Shown in pieces: positions 25,397 to 32,024 of a DNA stretch of 45,430 nucleotides. This DNA is from an uncultured Clostridia bacterium (lineage in GTDB: Bacteria > Bacillota > Clostridia > Oscillospirales > Acutalibacteraceae): contig CANPBX010000016.1 of assembly GCA_947572385.1 (NCBI GenBank), forward strand, positions 1 through 45,430, written 5' to 3'. The notes beneath the pieces were generated by a model that did no database searches, was not told the origin of the DNA, and saw nothing but the letters and a program-made list of their open reading frames with translations. Position numbers and translations under genes: made by a program. The number at the start of each line of letters is the position of its first letter. Positions within the stretch are counted from its first letter, which is position 1.

Positions 25397-25541
25397 GAGG
25401 TGTGGTGAGAAGTTTCATTTGAGGAAAACGCTGATGTAATTTAGCTATGACACTGGCTATAAAGGCTGTTATAATGTTTTTAAAGCATAAGGCAAACGGT
25501 AAAACATAACTTTTGAGCAGAATGCCCTGTTTTGCCGCCCA

Positions 25542-25568
25542 AGTTATCGATAAATAGTTATCGATAAC
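25542..25568. promoter_or_regulatory. Tandem palindromic operator upstream of the hydrogenase operon
   Basis: AGTTATCGATAA occurs twice, at 25542-25553 and 25556-25567, 14 bp apart. Each contains the perfect palindrome TTATCGATAA; the second extends to GTTATCGATAAC (12 bp). Two identical palindromes more than one helical turn apart suggest cooperative binding of a dimeric regulator. They lie about 63-89 bp upstream of the predicted start, a position more usual for an activator. The half-site GTTA-N4-TAAC is similar to, but 2 bp shorter in spacing than, the Rex redox repressor site. Confidence 0.6.
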
Positions 25569-25595
25569 AATTATGCGGATATACAGAATTTTTCA

Positions 25596-25624
25596 TTGCA
25601 AAATTCATAGAAAAATGTTAGAAT
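25596..25624 (+). promoter_or_regulatory. Promoter of the hydrogenase operon
   Basis: TTGCAA (25596-25601), 17-bp spacer, TAGAAT (25619-25624) with an extended -10 (TGTTAGAAT). The start would be near 25631, about 36 nt before the first gene. Confidence 0.72.
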
Positions 25625-25666
25625 ATAGACACAGTTCCCAACAACATTTTTTAGGAGGTCAAAGTC

Positions 25667-25906
25667 ATGAAAGTTACAGTGTGCATCGGTAGTTCCTGCC
25701 ATATAAAGGGGTCCCGTCAGGTGGTCGAGCAGTTTCAGCAGCTCATTGCCGACAATGGCCTGAAGGAGAAGGTGGATCTGGGCGGCACCTTCTGCATGGG
25801 CAAATGCCAGCAGGGCGTCTGTGTTACAGTGGACGACCAGTTCTACTCCGTCTCTCCCGAGACAGCTGAGGAGTTCTTCAACACCAATATCAAAGCCAAG
25901 GTCTAA
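25667..25906 (+). CDS. Thioredoxin-like [2Fe-2S] ferredoxin
   Basis: A 79-residue protein of the NuoE/HydC-type thioredoxin-like [2Fe-2S] family. The ligands are Cys6, Cys11 (C-x4-C) and Cys43, Cys47 (C-x3-C), the standard spacing. It carries one electron. It is the first gene of the hydrogenase operon, with TAGGAGGTC 6-7 nt before the ATG, and precedes the PAS/H-cluster protein by 30 nt. In other clostridia and in Thermotoga a small protein of this type accompanies the sensory hydrogenase, so it probably delivers or receives electrons for that sensor. Confidence 0.9.
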   Translation: MKVTVCIGSSCHIKGSRQVVEQFQQLIADNGLKEKVDLGGTFCMGKCQQGVCVTVDDQFYSVSPETAEEFFNTNIKAKV

Positions 25907-25936
25907 ACTTATCAAAACCGAAAGGAGACTGGGAGT

Positions 25937-27607
25937 ATGCCGGACTGTTTGCGGTTAAAAAAATCCAACTGTAAAAACTGCTATAAATGTATCCGCCACT
26001 GCCCGGTGAAAGCTATACGCTTTTCCGGCAGCCAGGCCCATATCATCAGTGACGAATGCATCCTCTGCGGGCAGTGCTTTGTGGTATGCCCGCAGAACGC
26101 CAAGGAGATAGTGGATGAGACCGAGAAGGTAAAGGTCTTTATGCAGAGCGGTGACCCTGTGATAGTCAGTCTCGCTCCGTCATTTATAGCCAATTTCCCC
26201 GGTGTGGGCATTGGGTCTATGAGAAAGGCCTTAAAGCAGCTGGGCTTCTTCGATGTAGAGGAGACCGCCCTGGGCGCAACTATGGTCAAAACCGAGTATG
26301 ACCGAATGCTCAAAGAGGATAAGCGTGATGTGGTTATCAGCTCCTGCTGCCACTCGGTAAACCTGCTTATCCAAAAGCATTTCCCTGCGGCCTTAGAGTT
26401 CCTGGCTGACATTGATTCCCCCATGATGGCCCACTGCAAGGACATTAAGCGCCGCATTCCCAATGCAAAGACTGTCTTTATCGGGCCTTGCGTCGCCAAA
26501 AAGGACGAGGCTGCCCGCTATGAAGGCATTGTGGACAGTGTGCTTACCTTTGAGGAGCTGAGCCAGTGGCTCGATTCCGCAGGCATCAAGCTGGAGCAGG
26601 AGGTAGATTCAGAGGAGTGCAGCCGTGCGCGCTTTTTCCCGACCACAGGCGGCATCCTAAAGACAATGGAGCTTAATGCTCCTGGCTATGCTTACCTGGC
26701 GTTGGACGGCGCGGAAAACTGTATTGCGGCGCTGAAGGACATTACAGACGGCAAGCTGCATAACTGCTTTATTGAAATGTCAGTCTGCGCCGGCAGCTGC
26801 ATTGGCGGCCCTGTGATGGAGAGGCATTCGCCTGTAAGGGATTATGTTGCGGTGTCTGGCTATGCCGGGGAGAGGGACTTTGAGGTCAGGCAGCCTGAAC
26901 CAAAGTCAATGCGCAAGCAGTTTGCATATCTTGAGATGCAAAACCGTATGCCAACCGAGGCAGAGATAAATACCGCCCTGCGCCAGATGGGTAAGTTCAA
27001 GCCGTCTCAGGAGTTGAACTGTGGCTCCTGCGGCTATAACACCTGCCGTGAGAAGGCTATTGCTGTATGCCAAGGTAAGGCTGAGATATCCATGTGCCTG
27101 CCCTTCCTGAAGGATAAAGCTGAGGGCTTCTCTGATGCCATAGTCAACAATACCCCGAATGGCCTCATTGTGCTCAACGAGGATTTGGAAGTACAGCAGA
27201 TAAACAATAAGGCCAGGAAGATAATGAACATACGCTCTGCATCAGATGTGCTGGGTGAGCCGGTGGTGAGGATACTTGACCCCACTGTGTTCCTAAACGT
27301 GCTGAATTCCAAACGGGATGTGCGCGATGAAAAGGTATATCTGGCCGAATATAAGTGCTATGTTGAGCAGTCGGTAGTCTATGATCGCGACCTGCATCTG
27401 CTTATTGGGATTATGCGCGACATAACTGATGAGCAGCTTGATAAGGAAAAGAAAGAAAGCATCAGCCGGCAGACGGTGGAGGTCGCCGACAAGGTGGTAG
27501 AGAAGCAAATGCGCATTGTCCAGGATATTGCAAGTCTGCTGGGCGAGACAGCTGCCGAGACAAAGATTGCGCTGACAAAGCTGAAGGAGTCAATCACTGA
27601 TGAATGA
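25937..27607 (+). CDS. Sensory-type [FeFe]-hydrogenase with PAS domain (HydS / group C-like)
   Basis: A 556-residue multidomain protein. Order: two [4Fe-4S] sites (Cys12/15/18/22 and Cys41/44/47/51); an H-cluster domain with Cys138 (SSCCHS), Cys185 (GPCVAKK), Cys284 and Cys288 (SVCAGSC); a further Fe-S module (Cys362, 365, 370, 387; C-x2-C-x4-C-x16-C); a PAS domain (about 396-500); and a helical tail. It has no kinase or cyclase output domain. The H-cluster loops differ from catalytic enzymes (P to H after CC; MPC to GPC; MAC to SVC), as in putative H2-sensing group C proteins. It overlaps the PP2C gene by 8 bp, which suggests signal transfer to that phosphatase. Function is inferred from family and context. 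Confidence 0.85.
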   Translation: MPDCLRLKKSNCKNCYKCIRHCPVKAIRFSGSQAHIISDECILCGQCFVVCPQNAKEIVDETEKVKVFMQSGDPVIVSLAPSFIANFPGVGIGSMRKALKQLGFFDVEETALGATMVKTEYDRMLKEDKRDVVISSCCHSVNLLIQKHFPAALEFLADIDSPMMAHCKDIKRRIPNAKTVFIGPCVAKKDEAARYEGIVDSVLTFEELSQWLDSAGIKLEQEVDSEECSRARFFPTTGGILKTMELNAPGYAYLALDGAENCIAALKDITDGKLHNCFIEMSVCAGSCIGGPVMERHSPVRDYVAVSGYAGERDFEVRQPEPKSMRKQFAYLEMQNRMPTEAEINTALRQMGKFKPSQELNCGSCGYNTCREKAIAVCQGKAEISMCLPFLKDKAEGFSDAIVNNTPNGLIVLNEDLEVQQINNKARKIMNIRSASDVLGEPVVRILDPTVFLNVLNSKRDVRDEKVYLAEYKCYVEQSVVYDRDLHLLIGIMRDITDEQLDKEKKESISRQTVEVADKVVEKQMRIVQDIASLLGETAAETKIALTKLKESITDE

Positions 27608-28772
27608 CCTTTGTGCTGATATCGGGTATAAGAGCATCAACCACTATGGCGAGCAGCTATGCGGCGACCATGTGGATGTGATAGAGCAGGGAGACAACTC
27701 CACCGTTGTGGTGCTGGCAGACGGCCTTGGCAGCGGCGTGAAGGCCAGCATTCTCTCCACGCTTACATCAAAGATAATCTCTACAATGATGGCAGCAGGT
27801 ATGCCCCTGGAGGAGTGTGTCTCTGCGGTGGCGGCGACACTGCCGGTCAGCTCGGAGCATGGTGTAGCCTACTCTACTTTTACTATAATACACCTTTTGA
27901 ACAATCAGACTGCCGAGCTGATACAGTATGATAACCCACACGTTATACTGTTAAGGGATGGGGTGAACTACGACTATCCCAAGACTGAGATGAACATAGG
28001 CGGCAAGCAGATATTCAAGTCGTCCATACCTTTAAGGGAGAACGACGCTTTTATTGCCATGAGCGATGGATGCCCACATGCTGGAATCGGAATAGAGTAC
28101 AATTTCGGATGGGCCATTGAGGATATCACTAGCTTTATGGAGACCATCATCCTTGCCGGATATACGGCAAAGACCCTTTCAACTATGCTGGTAGACGAGT
28201 GCTATAAGCTGTATGGGGGGGAGCCAAAGGATGATGTTACCTCGTGCGTAGTGCGCATCCGCAAGCGCGAACCCATGAACCTGCTGTTTGGACCGCCTTC
28301 CAACCGCGACGACTGTGACAGGATGATGAGCTTGTTCTTCTCCAAGGAGGGCAAGCATATCATCTGCGGCGGTACCACCTCTACTATAGCATCACAGTTC
28401 CTGCGCAAGCCGCTGAAGCCAAGCCTCAACTTTGAGGGCTCAGACCTGCCGCCCACTGCAGAGCTGGAGGGAGTGGATCTGGTAACTGAGGGCGTTATAA
28501 CTATAGCCAGAGTGCTTGAGTATGCCAAGGACTACCTAAAGGACAACGACAGGTATGAGGACTGGGGCATGAAGCGGGACGGCGCTGCTCTCATAAGCCG
28601 CTTCCTGTTTGAGGAGGCTACAGACATAAACTTCTTTGTGGGACGGGCAATAAACCCGGCCCACCAGAACCCTGACCTGCCAATAACCTTCAGCATCAAA
28701 ATGAGTCTTGCTGAGGAACTGGTAGATTGCCTGCGGCAGATGGGCAAAAGGGTAAAGGTAAGCTATTTTTAA
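27600..28772 (+). CDS. PP2C/SpoIIE-type serine phosphatase with extra C-terminal domain
   Basis: A 390-residue protein. Residues 1 to about 223 form a SpoIIE-like PP2C phosphatase: metal-binding Asp41-Gly42 (LADGLGSG), Asp156 (AMSDG) and Asp211/Asp212 (DDVTS) are present. It would remove phosphate from Ser/Thr residues of a target protein. Residues about 224-390 form an additional conserved-looking domain (GPPSNRDDCDRMM, then HIICGGTTSTIASQFL) that I do not recognise. The gene overlaps the sensory hydrogenase gene by 8 bp and is followed 12 nt later by a second hydrogenase, so it is the likely output of the PAS/H-cluster sensor. The target protein is unknown; no anti-sigma factor antagonist is encoded nearby. 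Confidence 0.85.
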   Translation: MNDLCADIGYKSINHYGEQLCGDHVDVIEQGDNSTVVVLADGLGSGVKASILSTLTSKIISTMMAAGMPLEECVSAVAATLPVSSEHGVAYSTFTIIHLLNNQTAELIQYDNPHVILLRDGVNYDYPKTEMNIGGKQIFKSSIPLRENDAFIAMSDGCPHAGIGIEYNFGWAIEDITSFMETIILAGYTAKTLSTMLVDECYKLYGGEPKDDVTSCVVRIRKREPMNLLFGPPSNRDDCDRMMSLFFSKEGKHIICGGTTSTIASQFLRKPLKPSLNFEGSDLPPTAELEGVDLVTEGVITIARVLEYAKDYLKDNDRYEDWGMKRDGAALISRFLFEEATDINFFVGRAINPAHQNPDLPITFSIKMSLAEELVDCLRQMGKRVKVSYF

Positions 28773-28784
28773 GGAGGGTGCCAA

Positions 28785-30224
28785 GTGAACCAACCAAATC
28801 AACTGAAAAGGTTTGACACCAAGGTACAGTACCTGAAATATAAAGTCCTACGGGAGACGGCCCGGATGGCTTGGGAGGACCGGCTGCTGGAGGGGATGAT
28901 GGACATACCAAAAATCATCGTTCCCGGTAAGGAGCCTACAATGCGCTGCTGTGTCTATAAGGAGCGCGCGATTTTGGCTGAGCGAGTCAAGATGGCAATG
29001 GGCGGCCATGCGGATAATCCCAATATTATAGAGGTAATAGACATAGCCTGTGATGAGTGTCCTGCCGCAGGTTACGAGGTCACAGATTCATGCCGCGGCT
29101 GCCTTGCGCACCGCTGCGAGGATGTATGCCGCAGGGGTGCTATCTCCTTCGACCATAACCACGTGGCCCATATCGATAAGAGTAAGTGTGTTGAGTGCGG
29201 ACAGTGCGCGAAGGTCTGCCCCTATTCGGCTATTGTTGACCGCAAGCGCCCGTGTCAGGTGGCATGCAAGGTCAAGGCTATCTCTATCAATGAGAACAAT
29301 GCGGCGGCTATCGACGATGAGAAGTGCATACAGTGCGGTGCATGCGTGTATCAGTGCCCGTTCGGTGCGGTGACGGACAAGTCCTTTATGCTCAACGTAA
29401 TCGATATGCTGAAAAAGAGCGAGGACAATAAGAACTATAAGGTGTACGCGGTGGTTGCGCCGTCGATCTCCAGTCAGTTTGTCTATGCGAACCTGGGACA
29501 GGTTATTACAGGGCTAAAGAAGATGGGCTTCTTCACCGTAATTGAGGCGGCGCTGGGCGCCGATATGGTGGCTATGAGCGAATCTCGGGAGTTGGCGGAG
29601 AAAGGATTCCTGACGAGCTCATGCTGTCCGGCGTTTGTGTCGTACGTCAAGTCGGCGTTCCCGGAGCTAAAGGAGAATATTTCTCATAACCTGTCGCCAA
29701 TGGCAGCACTGGCGGAGTATCTGAAGAAGACCGACCCAACCGGCAAGGTGGTGTTTATTGGTCCGTGCACAGCTAAAAAGGCCGAGGCCAGGCAGGAGCG
29801 TGTGCGCCCGCTTATTGATGCGGTACTTACTTTCGAGGAACTTCAGGCCCTGTTCGACAGCATGGATATGGATATTACGACCCTTGAGGAGGACGTGCTG
29901 GACAACGCCTCCTACTATGGCCGTATCTTTGCCCGCTCTGGCGGTGTGTCTGACGCTGTGGCACAGGCGATGAAGGAACAAGGAATTGAGTTTGACTTGA
30001 AGGCGGTACCATGCGATGGTATCGAGGCCTGCCGTATGGCCCTGCTGAAGAAATCCAAGAACGCTTTAGCTGGAAATTTCATTGAGGGCATGGCCTGTAA
30101 CGGCGGGTGTATCGGCGGCGCAGGCTGTCTGACCCACGGCGAGAAAAACAAGGCTGAGGTCGACAAGTACGGTAAAGAAGCCATGGAAAAGACTATTGGC
30201 GATGCCGTATCTATTCTGCAATAA
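28785..30224 (+). CDS. Monomeric [FeFe]-hydrogenase (group B-like)
   Basis: A 479-residue iron-only hydrogenase expected to make or use H2 with ferredoxin. The H-cluster ligands are in the usual loops: TSSCCP (Cys280/281), GPCTAKK (Cys328), EGMACNGGC (Cys438/442), so the active site looks catalytically complete. Before it are several Fe-S sites: Cys103/106/111/115, Cys135/138/141/145 and Cys181/184/187/191. Length and N-terminal pattern fit the ferredoxin-type group B of clostridia. The start is GTG at 28785 with AAGGAGGGTG just upstream, overlapping the stop of the phosphatase gene. The maturation genes hydE, hydF and hydG are not in the window. Confidence 0.92.
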   Translation: MNQPNQLKRFDTKVQYLKYKVLRETARMAWEDRLLEGMMDIPKIIVPGKEPTMRCCVYKERAILAERVKMAMGGHADNPNIIEVIDIACDECPAAGYEVTDSCRGCLAHRCEDVCRRGAISFDHNHVAHIDKSKCVECGQCAKVCPYSAIVDRKRPCQVACKVKAISINENNAAAIDDEKCIQCGACVYQCPFGAVTDKSFMLNVIDMLKKSEDNKNYKVYAVVAPSISSQFVYANLGQVITGLKKMGFFTVIEAALGADMVAMSESRELAEKGFLTSSCCPAFVSYVKSAFPELKENISHNLSPMAALAEYLKKTDPTGKVVFIGPCTAKKAEARQERVRPLIDAVLTFEELQALFDSMDMDITTLEEDVLDNASYYGRIFARSGGVSDAVAQAMKEQGIEFDLKAVPCDGIEACRMALLKKSKNALAGNFIEGMACNGGCIGGAGCLTHGEKNKAEVDKYGKEAMEKTIGDAVSILQ

Positions 30225-30357: not shown

Positions 30358-30410
30358 ATATAGTAGATTGTAGCTTTGGGTAGTATGTAGAAATATTGTG
30401 GGGGTTTAGC

Positions 30411-32024
30411 ATGAAGCATAGAAGAAAACAAGCATGTTTTACATGGCTGGGTAAGTGGAGAATATTTCTTATTTTAGCACTGATTTTTGCTCTCAGCATT
30501 ATTCTCATTGCCGGAGGCAATAACGAGGTGCCGGTACAGGTTATAGGCGATGATGTGGAGCTTCGGGTGTTCGGCAGATATGAAAATAATATTGTGATGC
30601 TTTTAGAGGATTCCGGCAAGTTGCTTGCGTACTATAAGGATAGTTCTAGTACGGACGGCAAGCTGACTACCGTAGAGGTTGTAGAAGATGGCAGGGCATT
30701 TTTCCTGGATGGTGGCACTTTGGGAATTGGGCAGTGCGATGAAATGAGTTTTAATACGTCGCTCTATTCTTTGGAATCACACTTGCAAAATCTCAAAGTG
30801 GATATGCATGGGCTATTTCCAGAGGAGAGTGACAAGCTGGTCTTTTCCAATACAGGTACTGAGCAGGGTACACATGAGTACATAATATATATACTTTCAT
30901 CAAACGGAGAGCTGTGGCAGTGTGAATCGCTCTCAGAGCCGGAGGAAACAGGGATTTCGGACGTTGAATTTCTTGACTCAACACAAGGCGGCTGGGTCTA
31001 TATGTACACTGATGGAGTTTTGTATCGCTGGAGAGGCAGTGATATGGATGGCAGTGAACTGTTCCTAGACGCACCTTGCCCAAGCAAACTGGTGGGGGAT
31101 GATGTATATATAGATGAAGCAGGAATGATAGTGAGAATTAGAGACGGGAGCATTGAGCAGGCAGCAGTTGACATTGATGTACTGAATCCTCTCGCCTGTC
31201 TAGGGACAGACAGCTACCTGCTCGCAGCAGACAGTTCCGGTGTGGTTCACAAGTACGACTGGTCTGGTGAAGAAGTCATTGAGGTCGAAACAGCTAGCAC
31301 CGAGGGTTATGTCTGCGGGATAGTAGAGGACTATGCGCTCATAATTAAAGACGAAATGTTATGCCTGACAAGGCTTATATTCCGTGAACTGGGTAGTGAG
31401 CCTGAGCCGACACCTGAGCCAACAGATAATCCGAGCGAGACTGAGGAGCCCAGCCCAGAACCAACGGATGAGCCAACCCCGAGTAATGGTGAGGAAGATC
31501 TACCAAGCTCAGAACCCGAGAGCAGCAGTGAGCCTGAGCCCAGCAATGAACCGGAAGAAAGCCCCGAACCTACACCTGGCGGGAACGATGAGGTAGGCAA
31601 GATAATTGAGCGATGCAGGTTTAGGGAATTGAGCGGCAATGATGGCAAATATATCTCCGTGTTGAGCGGCTCGAGAATATCAGATTTGAGAAAAATTTAT
31701 GCCCCGCAAAGCATAGAAGCTTTCAATCAGGACGGCGGTGCTATACATGAAGCTATGCTGAAGACAGGGATGAAAATCAGGCTTCCGTATGGCGATGGTG
31801 GTGGGGATGAAATCACGATAGTTATTCGGGCAGATTGCACCGGCGATGGGAAGGTGCTGGAGTCTGACATCGTGTTCGCTTCATTGTATTATCTGGATGT
31901 CCAGGAGGTTGAAACTGAGGCACAGTATCTGGCGATGGATATGAATGAGGATGGGGATGTCACTATACATGATCTTCCAGGGATAGCTACTGAGATCAAG
32001 CGCATGGAAAGTAAGATATCTTAA
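30411..32024 (+). CDS. Membrane-anchored extracellular protein with C-terminal dockerin-like domain
   Basis: A 537-residue protein. A basic N-terminus and one hydrophobic helix (about 16-36) look like an uncleaved anchor. Residues about 40-325 form an acidic, beta-rich region of unknown fold. A Pro/Glu/Ser/Thr linker (about 329-391, repeats of PEPT) leads to a module (about 395-470) of the kind that often precedes dockerins, then two EF-hand-like calcium loops (DCTGDGKV and DMNEDGDV, about 474-530). The C-terminal pair fits a type I dockerin, which binds cohesin domains. ATG at 30411 has a GGGGG site. No cohesin, scaffoldin or glycosidase gene is near, so the partner is unknown. Confidence 0.75.
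   Translation: MKHRRKQACFTWLGKWRIFLILALIFALSIILIAGGNNEVPVQVIGDDVELRVFGRYENNIVMLLEDSGKLLAYYKDSSSTDGKLTTVEVVEDGRAFFLDGGTLGIGQCDEMSFNTSLYSLESHLQNLKVDMHGLFPEESDKLVFSNTGTEQGTHEYIIYILSSNGELWQCESLSEPEETGISDVEFLDSTQGGWVYMYTDGVLYRWRGSDMDGSELFLDAPCPSKLVGDDVYIDEAGMIVRIRDGSIEQAAVDIDVLNPLACLGTDSYLLAADSSGVVHKYDWSGEEVIEVETASTEGYVCGIVEDYALIIKDEMLCLTRLIFRELGSEPEPTPEPTDNPSETEEPSPEPTDEPTPSNGEEDLPSSEPESSSEPEPSNEPEESPEPTPGGNDEVGKIIERCRFRELSGNDGKYISVLSGSRISDLRKIYAPQSIEAFNQDGGAIHEAMLKTGMKIRLPYGDGGGDEITIVIRADCTGDGKVLESDIVFASLYYLDVQEVETEAQYLAMDMNEDGDVTIHDLPGIATEIKRMESKIS

Follow-up and report, generated by a model that had tools for sequence, protein, structure and literature searches.

The window analyzed here, a stretch of 45,430 nucleotides (nt) on one contig of an uncultured Clostridia bacterium of the Acutalibacteraceae, carries a four-gene operon, the hydS operon, in which the putative hydrogen sensor HydS is followed directly by a SpoIIE-type phosphatase. 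We favor, with slightly better than even confidence, a reading in which HydS gates this phosphatase, the phosphatase serves the hydrogen/ethanol branch of fermentation, and synthesis of the module depends on an operator that it shares with other operons and that a variant form of Rex most likely reads. Operons of this type are already published, as hydS-hydA2 of Ruminococcus albus (PMC10838669, PMC6776011) and as hfsABCD of Thermoanaerobacterium, which an earlier annotation made from the letters of the window (hereafter, the sequence-only reading) did not know. New here are the regulon, the link to a variant Rex, the probable transfer of the module, and two unexplained conserved elements, the C-terminal domain of the phosphatase and the tail of HydS. 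The operon and its upstream region comprise the following features.

25543..25568 (core 25545-25566), no strand assigned: double-palindrome candidate operator GTTATCGATAAATAGTTATCGATAAC, from exact pattern search and conservation.
25596..25624, plus strand: predicted promoter, TTGCAA, 17 nt, TAGAAT, from a consensus scan and conservation in seven genus genomes.
25667-30224, plus strand: the hydS operon, four open reading frames (ORFs), from ORF calling.
25667..25906, plus strand: thioredoxin-like [2Fe-2S] protein, 79 amino acids (aa); PF01257, 33.7 bits (cut-off 24.8), E 3.9e-8.
25937..27607, plus strand: HydS, 556 aa; PF02906, 167.3 bits (22.1), PF04060, 37.2 (23), and the PAS family PF00989, 28.7 (22.6).
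27600..28772, plus strand: SpoIIE/PP2C-type Ser/Thr phosphatase, 390 aa; PF07228, 56.5 bits (cut-off 25).
28785..30224, plus strand: monomeric [FeFe] hydrogenase of group B1, 479 aa, GTG start; TIGR04105, 570.5 bits (cut-off 450).

The 2.39-Mb window genome (G000 in our comparisons) has exactly three matches to the pattern TATCGATA-N2..9-TATCGATA, all of them of the form TATCGATA-N5/6-TATCGATA, and the reversed-pattern control gave none. One site precedes the hydS operon. The other two lie on separate contigs: on C15 before rex-adhE and the gene for an APH-type kinase, and on C3 before a bifurcating hydrogenase operon (NuoE-HATPase-2Fe2S-NuoF-HydA), the HydA of which is recognized by the model for NADH-dependent group A6. 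Among 60 relatives, the window genome included, there were 24 exact sites against 1 in the control. Sorted by hand, 8 stand before nuoE-hydA (one of these, in G419, was counted on matching neighbors, NuoE giving no match), 7 before the hydS operon and 5 before rex-adhE in the genus. The remaining four are single sites: one precedes rex-adhE outside the genus, in another genus, one precedes an iron alcohol dehydrogenase, one lies elsewhere, and one follows a PHP gene at a contig end, where a target operon is expected. Thus, 21 of the 24 precede these three operon types. Eight genus genomes have a phosphatase like that of the window; the exact site was found before the hydS operon in 7 of them (the other one was left out of this look), and at least one exact site occurred in 8/8 of these genomes, in 4/15 with a 63–67% identical version of the phosphatase, and in 0/6 with none. 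Only exact sites are specific, because a relaxed search (fixed gap of 6, up to 3 mismatches) returned 10 sites against 11 in the control, including a 2-mismatch site at C27:30149; among 3285 natural stretches of 310 nt from the named loci described below, true sites included, 0.7% reach 2 mismatches. A narrow search of the literature found no description of the operator in the portions of the papers available. The sharing of this operator by the sensor set, rex-adhE-kinase and the bifurcating hydrogenase suggests one small regulon.

The most likely reader of the operator is a variant Rex. Two kinds of Rex can be told apart by their recognition helix, a variant (RKDL-x-x-(V/I)(S/C)xxG(K/R)PKxGY-like) and a canonical kind (RKDL-SYFG...-like). 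The double palindrome (up to 3 mismatches) was present at 35/38 variant-Rex loci and at 0/12 canonical loci (Fisher p 4e-9), in a comparison of loci with at least 300 nt upstream whose rows are related and whose classes were set after the data had first been seen. Exact canonical operators showed the reverse, 4/12 canonical and 0/38 variant loci; at up to 2 mismatches they did not separate the two kinds (4/12 versus 9/38, p 0.71). The Rex of the window genome is recognized by NF003994 (276.5, cut-off 130), and before its gene on C15 the best match to TTGTGA-N6-TCACAA or TTGTTAA-N4-TTAACAA has 4 mismatches, the double TATCGATA standing there instead. In a second count, the operator was found at 25/30 loci with Rex before adhE and was absent from 10/12 without an adjacent Rex; one of the two exceptions, L234, belongs to a genome, G207, whose Rex sits in the hydS operon under the same operator (L039). 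We also considered the LysR protein of R. albus as the binder and do not favor it: of 8 loci where LysR but not Rex precedes adhE, 7 are without the operator and one, L131, has it with 3 mismatches, and a search of the window genome at E 1e-10, run without a positive control, gave no match to this LysR.

The four genes of the hydS operon are separated by 30 nt, an 8-nt overlap (HydS and phosphatase) and 12 nt, and apparently form one operon, which bears out the 8–30 nt spacing or overlap given by the sequence-only reading. A single predicted promoter agrees with that reading as well: the −35 element TTGCAA is kept in 7/7 aligned upstream regions of the genus, and the −10 element is TAGAAT, or TAAAAT in G402. 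The operator is kept in these seven regions as well, but they were found through it, so that only the conservation of the promoter is independent there. Another match upstream (25447-25475, 11/12) scored higher and was rejected as a promoter because the genus alignment shows no conservation.

In order to compare gene order, as the sequence-only reading had proposed, we used three sets of loci, several members of which end at contig edges: 80 named loci, the best of at least 577 confirmed and close relatives only; 59 phylum loci, hand-picked from the listing of a 398-genome search in which 282 genomes had a match of any strength; and 15 genus loci. The phylum denominator is 58, as L272, which holds only a stand-alone C-terminal domain of the phosphatase, was left out. 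HydS lies immediately 5′ of the phosphatase in 78/80 named, 57/58 phylum and 13/15 genus loci, and the sole phylum miss (L273) is again a stand-alone C-terminal domain. This pairing is beyond chance. The 8-nt overlap was found in 69/78 measured gaps of named loci, in 13/13 genus loci and in 3/57 phylum loci, where an overlap of 4 nt is commonest (23/57). The nearby hydrogenase varies in type. A B-type hydrogenase lies within three genes 3′ in 69/80 named, 9/58 phylum and 15/15 genus loci; NuoF or HydA is nearby in 2/80, 32/58 and 0/15; and any catalytic hydrogenase in 72/80, 41/58 and 15/15, respectively. Since HydS adjacency is near-universal while the hydrogenase type varies, sensor and phosphatase form the constant core. 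The genes, coordinates and phosphatase-linked sensor named in the sequence-only reading hold; a direct relay from sensor through phosphatase to this hydrogenase finds no support here, the module being commoner across the phylum near NuoF/HydA than before a B-type enzyme. A relative of the small [2Fe-2S] protein is close to the phosphatase gene in 71/80 named and 46/58 phylum loci, and an APH-type kinase is near the module in 50/80 named, 2/58 phylum and 14/15 genus loci. Many relatives (L055-L134) have two tandem thioredoxin-like 2Fe-2S genes before hydS, where the window has one, and contigs labeled Methanocorpusculum and Alistipes (L075, L098) bear the Clostridia-type operon, probably because they were misplaced in assembled genomes.

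HydS comprises two N-terminal 4Fe-4S clusters, an H-cluster domain (residues 74-292), a C-terminal FeS module (359-389), a PAS domain (400-496) and a conserved tail (~523-550); neither a kinase nor a cyclase domain was among its Pfam and NCBIfam matches, in agreement with the sequence-only reading. The H-cluster, whose absence would have spoken against that reading, is kept: the ligands are Cys138, 185, 284 and 288, which are conserved in 56, 56, 56 and 55 of 56 phylum relatives. HydS also contains the motif C362-x2-C365-x4-C370-x16-C387, and Cx2Cx4Cx16C is given for group C and D sensor hydrogenases (PMC8163306). In domain make-up and in its phosphatase neighbor HydS resembles HydDB group C3 (PMC5037454), and on these likenesses we place it there as a putative H2/redox sensor. 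The sequence-only reading had set phosphatase-linked group C sensors apart as a subgroup; HydDB does the same, and lists sensing by group C3 as putative and its role as undetermined (PMC5037454). Mean column identity over the 56 phylum sequences is 0.84 in the tail, 0.76 in the C-terminal FeS module, 0.64 in the N-terminal clusters, 0.53 in the H-domain and 0.47 in PAS, which suggests that the tail, the best conserved region, is the natural contact with the phosphatase.

The window genome also encodes, on C3 (L035:10024-14456), a second HydS-like protein of 447 aa that lacks PAS and has an SSACP motif. It is flanked by two DRTGG proteins; an RsbW-like ATPase and a PHP protein belong to the same cluster, directly 5′ of the group A6 hydrogenase operon, and this arrangement is found, whole or in part, in 8 genus loci. 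In L248 and L252 an apparent second HydS beside the module was rejected; by eye, it is a 318-aa ORF resembling an aldo-keto reductase. At L100:1-5307 a DRTGG-RsbW-HydS(D-like)-DRTGG-PHP cluster lies divergently beside the HydS-phosphatase pair, which hints that the two sensors may act in opposition.

The phosphatase, which overlaps HydS by 8 bp as the sequence-only reading had it, consists of a SpoIIE domain (residues 1-221) and a conserved, unannotated C-terminal domain (~223-390). Its metal-site residues (G-D23, D41-G, S-D156-G and D211-D212) align with SpoIIE chains in the PDB. Like the RsbU/SpoIIE phosphatases it has the PP2C domain and the metal-binding Asp residues; unlike them, it has no N-terminal sensor or linker in cis, carries the C-terminal domain instead, and has no dedicated STAS partner that we could find (PF01740 was searched, PF13466 STAS_2 was not). 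RsbU is switched through a coiled-coil linker (PMC12143880), and we infer by analogy that HydS and the phosphatase may use an in-trans version of such switching. Besides SpoIIE and PP2C_2, no Pfam family matches more than 2 of 20 relatives of the phosphatase even at E 1, and a weak profile match (E 0.0068) between the C-terminal domain and a chain of phosphoheptose isomerase was not taken as an assignment. The domain is found in 118/398 phylum genomes. In three genomes of one genus (G203, G151, G119) it stands alone directly after hydA; at loci L272, L273 and L277 the stand-alone domain after hydA is followed by a second nuoE, with nuoF-hydA also present in L272 and L273. Other short frames of the domain (e.g., in G249, G250, G274, G341, G388 and G393) may be contig ends or broken genes.

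The fourth gene, a group-B-like hydrogenase in the sequence-only reading, belongs by model to group B1 and has the H-cluster motifs TSSCCP, GPCTAKK and MACNGGCIGG. HydA2 of R. albus scores 577.4 with TIGR04105 and is likewise B1 by this model, unlike its designation as group A1 in PMC6776011. Just 3′ of the operon, 30396-32024 of the window encodes a protein with a weak, below-cut-off dockerin-type match and a low-complexity stretch.

The module in eight genus genomes was probably replaced by transfer. Rex, AdhE and kinase of the window genome were 72–76, 85–86 and 76–79% identical to those of genus mates (5 compared) and 44–49, 71–75 and 63–67% to those of outsiders (8 loci). The phosphatase, in contrast, is nearer to outsiders (71–80%) than to the genus mates' own linked version (63–66%), and HydS follows it (60–75% versus 61–63%, outsider L232 at 60% being the exception); hydrogenase ranges overlap (74–80% versus 71–76%). 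In the phosphatase tree, in which the bootstrap had not settled and long outside branches were flagged, the window-like rows fall, as a 100/100 clade, within an outside group that has support, and the remaining rows of the genus make up a separate 100/99 clade. A quick FastTree of AdhE, read by eye and without its support values, kept 17 genus rows together. The outsider-like character of phosphatase and HydS, set against the genus-like Rex, AdhE and kinase, points to replacement, together with these trees. In five of the eight genomes (G000, G407, G415, G417, G419) one exact operator accompanies the module and another a rex-adhE located apart from it; in G402, G412 and G423, outside this count, rex-adhE was not traced. 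In G207 the genes are divided differently, and both parts (L039, L234) carry the operator.

The closest published counterpart, on plasmid pRUMAL01 of R. albus 7, has the same order (2Fe2S-HydS-SpoIIE-hydrogenase) and the same 8-nt overlap as the window, with identities of 67.7% for HydS, 75% for the phosphatase and 77% for the hydrogenase. Its cluster reads LysR-Rex-AdhE-phosphotransferase-2Fe2S-2Fe2S-HydS-SpoIIE-hydrogenase; rex, adhE, an APH-type kinase and a second 2Fe-2S gene are thus part of the cluster, whereas the window genome has rex-adhE-kinase elsewhere, on C15, again preceded by the operator of the hydS operon. R. albus 7 has the same double palindrome, there before rex. When an H2 consumer is present in co-culture, expression of the R. 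albus cluster drops 111-fold, and the authors propose H2 sensing, with the phosphatase perhaps modifying downstream regulators (PMC6776011); a review gives the change in HydA2 as 90-fold (PMC10838669). In the same order, hfsABCD of Thermoanaerobacterium and Clostridium thermocellum encodes a PAS-hydrogenase, a serine phosphatase and a ferredoxin hydrogenase, a likeness we draw from description only (PMC11837493, PMC5707799). A Rex site predicted before hfsABCD in T. saccharolyticum is of the canonical TTGTTA...TAAC kind (PMC5886521), as against TATCGATA in the window. Deletion of hfsA or hfsB raised ethanol ~1.8-fold and increased the adhE transcript, and deletion of hfsC, hfsD or the whole hfs operon gave no such rise (PMC5707799). 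This pattern suggests that HfsC and HfsD act downstream of HfsA and HfsB, and the published mutants implicate the ethanol branch (adhE) no less than the neighboring hydrogenase.

On our favored reading, the H-cluster and Fe-S chain of HydS, fed or read by the small [2Fe-2S] protein, would report H2 or electron pressure, and PAS and the conserved tail would pass this state in trans to the phosphatase. The phosphatase, aided by its own C-terminal domain, would then take the phosphate off a hydrogen/ethanol-branch protein that is phosphorylated on Ser/Thr. In relatives, the phosphatase seems to be restrained by the sensor. The shared operator, most likely read by the variant Rex, would tie synthesis of the module to the same branch. 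The genes and motifs, their conservation and co-occurrence and the common operator are observed, whereas H2 sensing, the direction of control, the class of substrate and Rex as the binder are what we infer in this scheme. Several observations weigh against it. The operator lies ~30 nt 5′ of the −35 element, a placement that is unusual for a simple repressor of the Rex kind and more in keeping with an activator, and a TGTTAAAATATTATCAA stretch resembling a canonical site also occurs at several variant loci, chiefly those of the genus. In T. saccharolyticum the rex transcript rose in high-ethanol strains, opposite to a simple Rex effect according to the authors, and the hfsA deletion was partly polar, with downstream genes two- to six-fold lower (PMC5707799). 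No catalytic hydrogenase was found in the stretch examined at 17/58 phylum loci, and close orthologs of the APH-type kinase (at least 55% identity) occur in 5/398 phylum genomes (11/398 at E 1e-20). Finally, the accessible portions of the cited papers report no phosphosubstrate, binding or direct H2 response for any member; the substrate, named in none of them, had been called not established by the sequence-only reading as well.

An unlikely alternative is that the phosphatase acts on a metabolic enzyme, the hydrogenase or AdhE, through its C-terminal domain and is opposed by the APH-type kinase encoded with adhE. The stand-alone domain directly after hydA would fit, although it is confined to one genus and is probably one event. 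So would the placing of rex-adhE-kinase under the operator of the hydS operon; the kinase, however, is confined to a close clade, is present in G337 without the phosphatase C-terminal domain, and belongs to the APH family, whose kinases mostly phosphorylate small molecules. We rejected it as a general antagonist for the wide phosphatase family, given 5/398 genomes for the kinase against 118/398 for the domain. In T. saccharolyticum, hfs mutants altered NADH-dependent alcohol dehydrogenase and not NADH-dependent aldehyde dehydrogenase activity, which the authors took as a hint of post-transcriptional control (PMC5707799). We think a partner switch improbable, in which the phosphatase dephosphorylates a STAS anti-anti-sigma factor, an RsbW-like kinase opposes it, and a sigma factor is freed for hydrogenase genes. 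The phosphatase domain is of the SpoIIE/RsbU kind, and an RsbW-like ATPase does lie beside the second HydS on C3. But RsbW-like or DRTGG genes are near the module in 1/80 named, 0/58 phylum and 0/15 genus loci, L100 being the only such neighbor seen. Furthermore, the single PF01740 STAS protein of the window genome (PF13466 STAS_2 was not searched) adjoins the best HATPase_c_2 match, a SpoIIAB-like ATPase, in what we take to be an arrangement like spoIIAA-spoIIAB, and this speaks against a dedicated anti-sigma partner for the phosphatase.

It is very unlikely, in our estimate, that HydS is a working hydrogenase subunit and the phosphatase a passenger. The residue matching the proton-transfer Cys299 of CpI is Cys in 75/76 named and 13/13 genus HydS sequences, although this Cys is reported not to be conserved in groups C and D (PMC8163306), so that the window clade differs from those groups in retaining it; HfsABC, too, might form a working hydrogenase (PMC13277313). 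Across the phylum, however, the position is Cys in 18/56 HydS and Ser or Ala in 33/56, the tail is kept in these, and the sensor-phosphatase pair persists even where no catalytic hydrogenase is nearby.

We also considered, as an unlikely proposal, that a Rex branch with altered recognition of TATCGATA-N5..7-TATCGATA drives an H2-economy regulon from a site 5′ of the promoter, while the HydS-gated phosphatase docks on the hydrogenase through its C-terminal domain and resets its phosphorylation. If true, transcriptional NADH sensing and post-translational H2 sensing would be joined in one circuit. How fermenters choose between H2 and ethanol is a long-standing question for interspecies hydrogen transfer, rumen methane and biofuel work, and HydS-phosphatase operons are a leading candidate for the sensor behind this choice. 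The three-operon regulon, its operator, a candidate regulator and kinase, the phosphatase domain and the sensor tail make the question of what the phosphatase targets easier to test.

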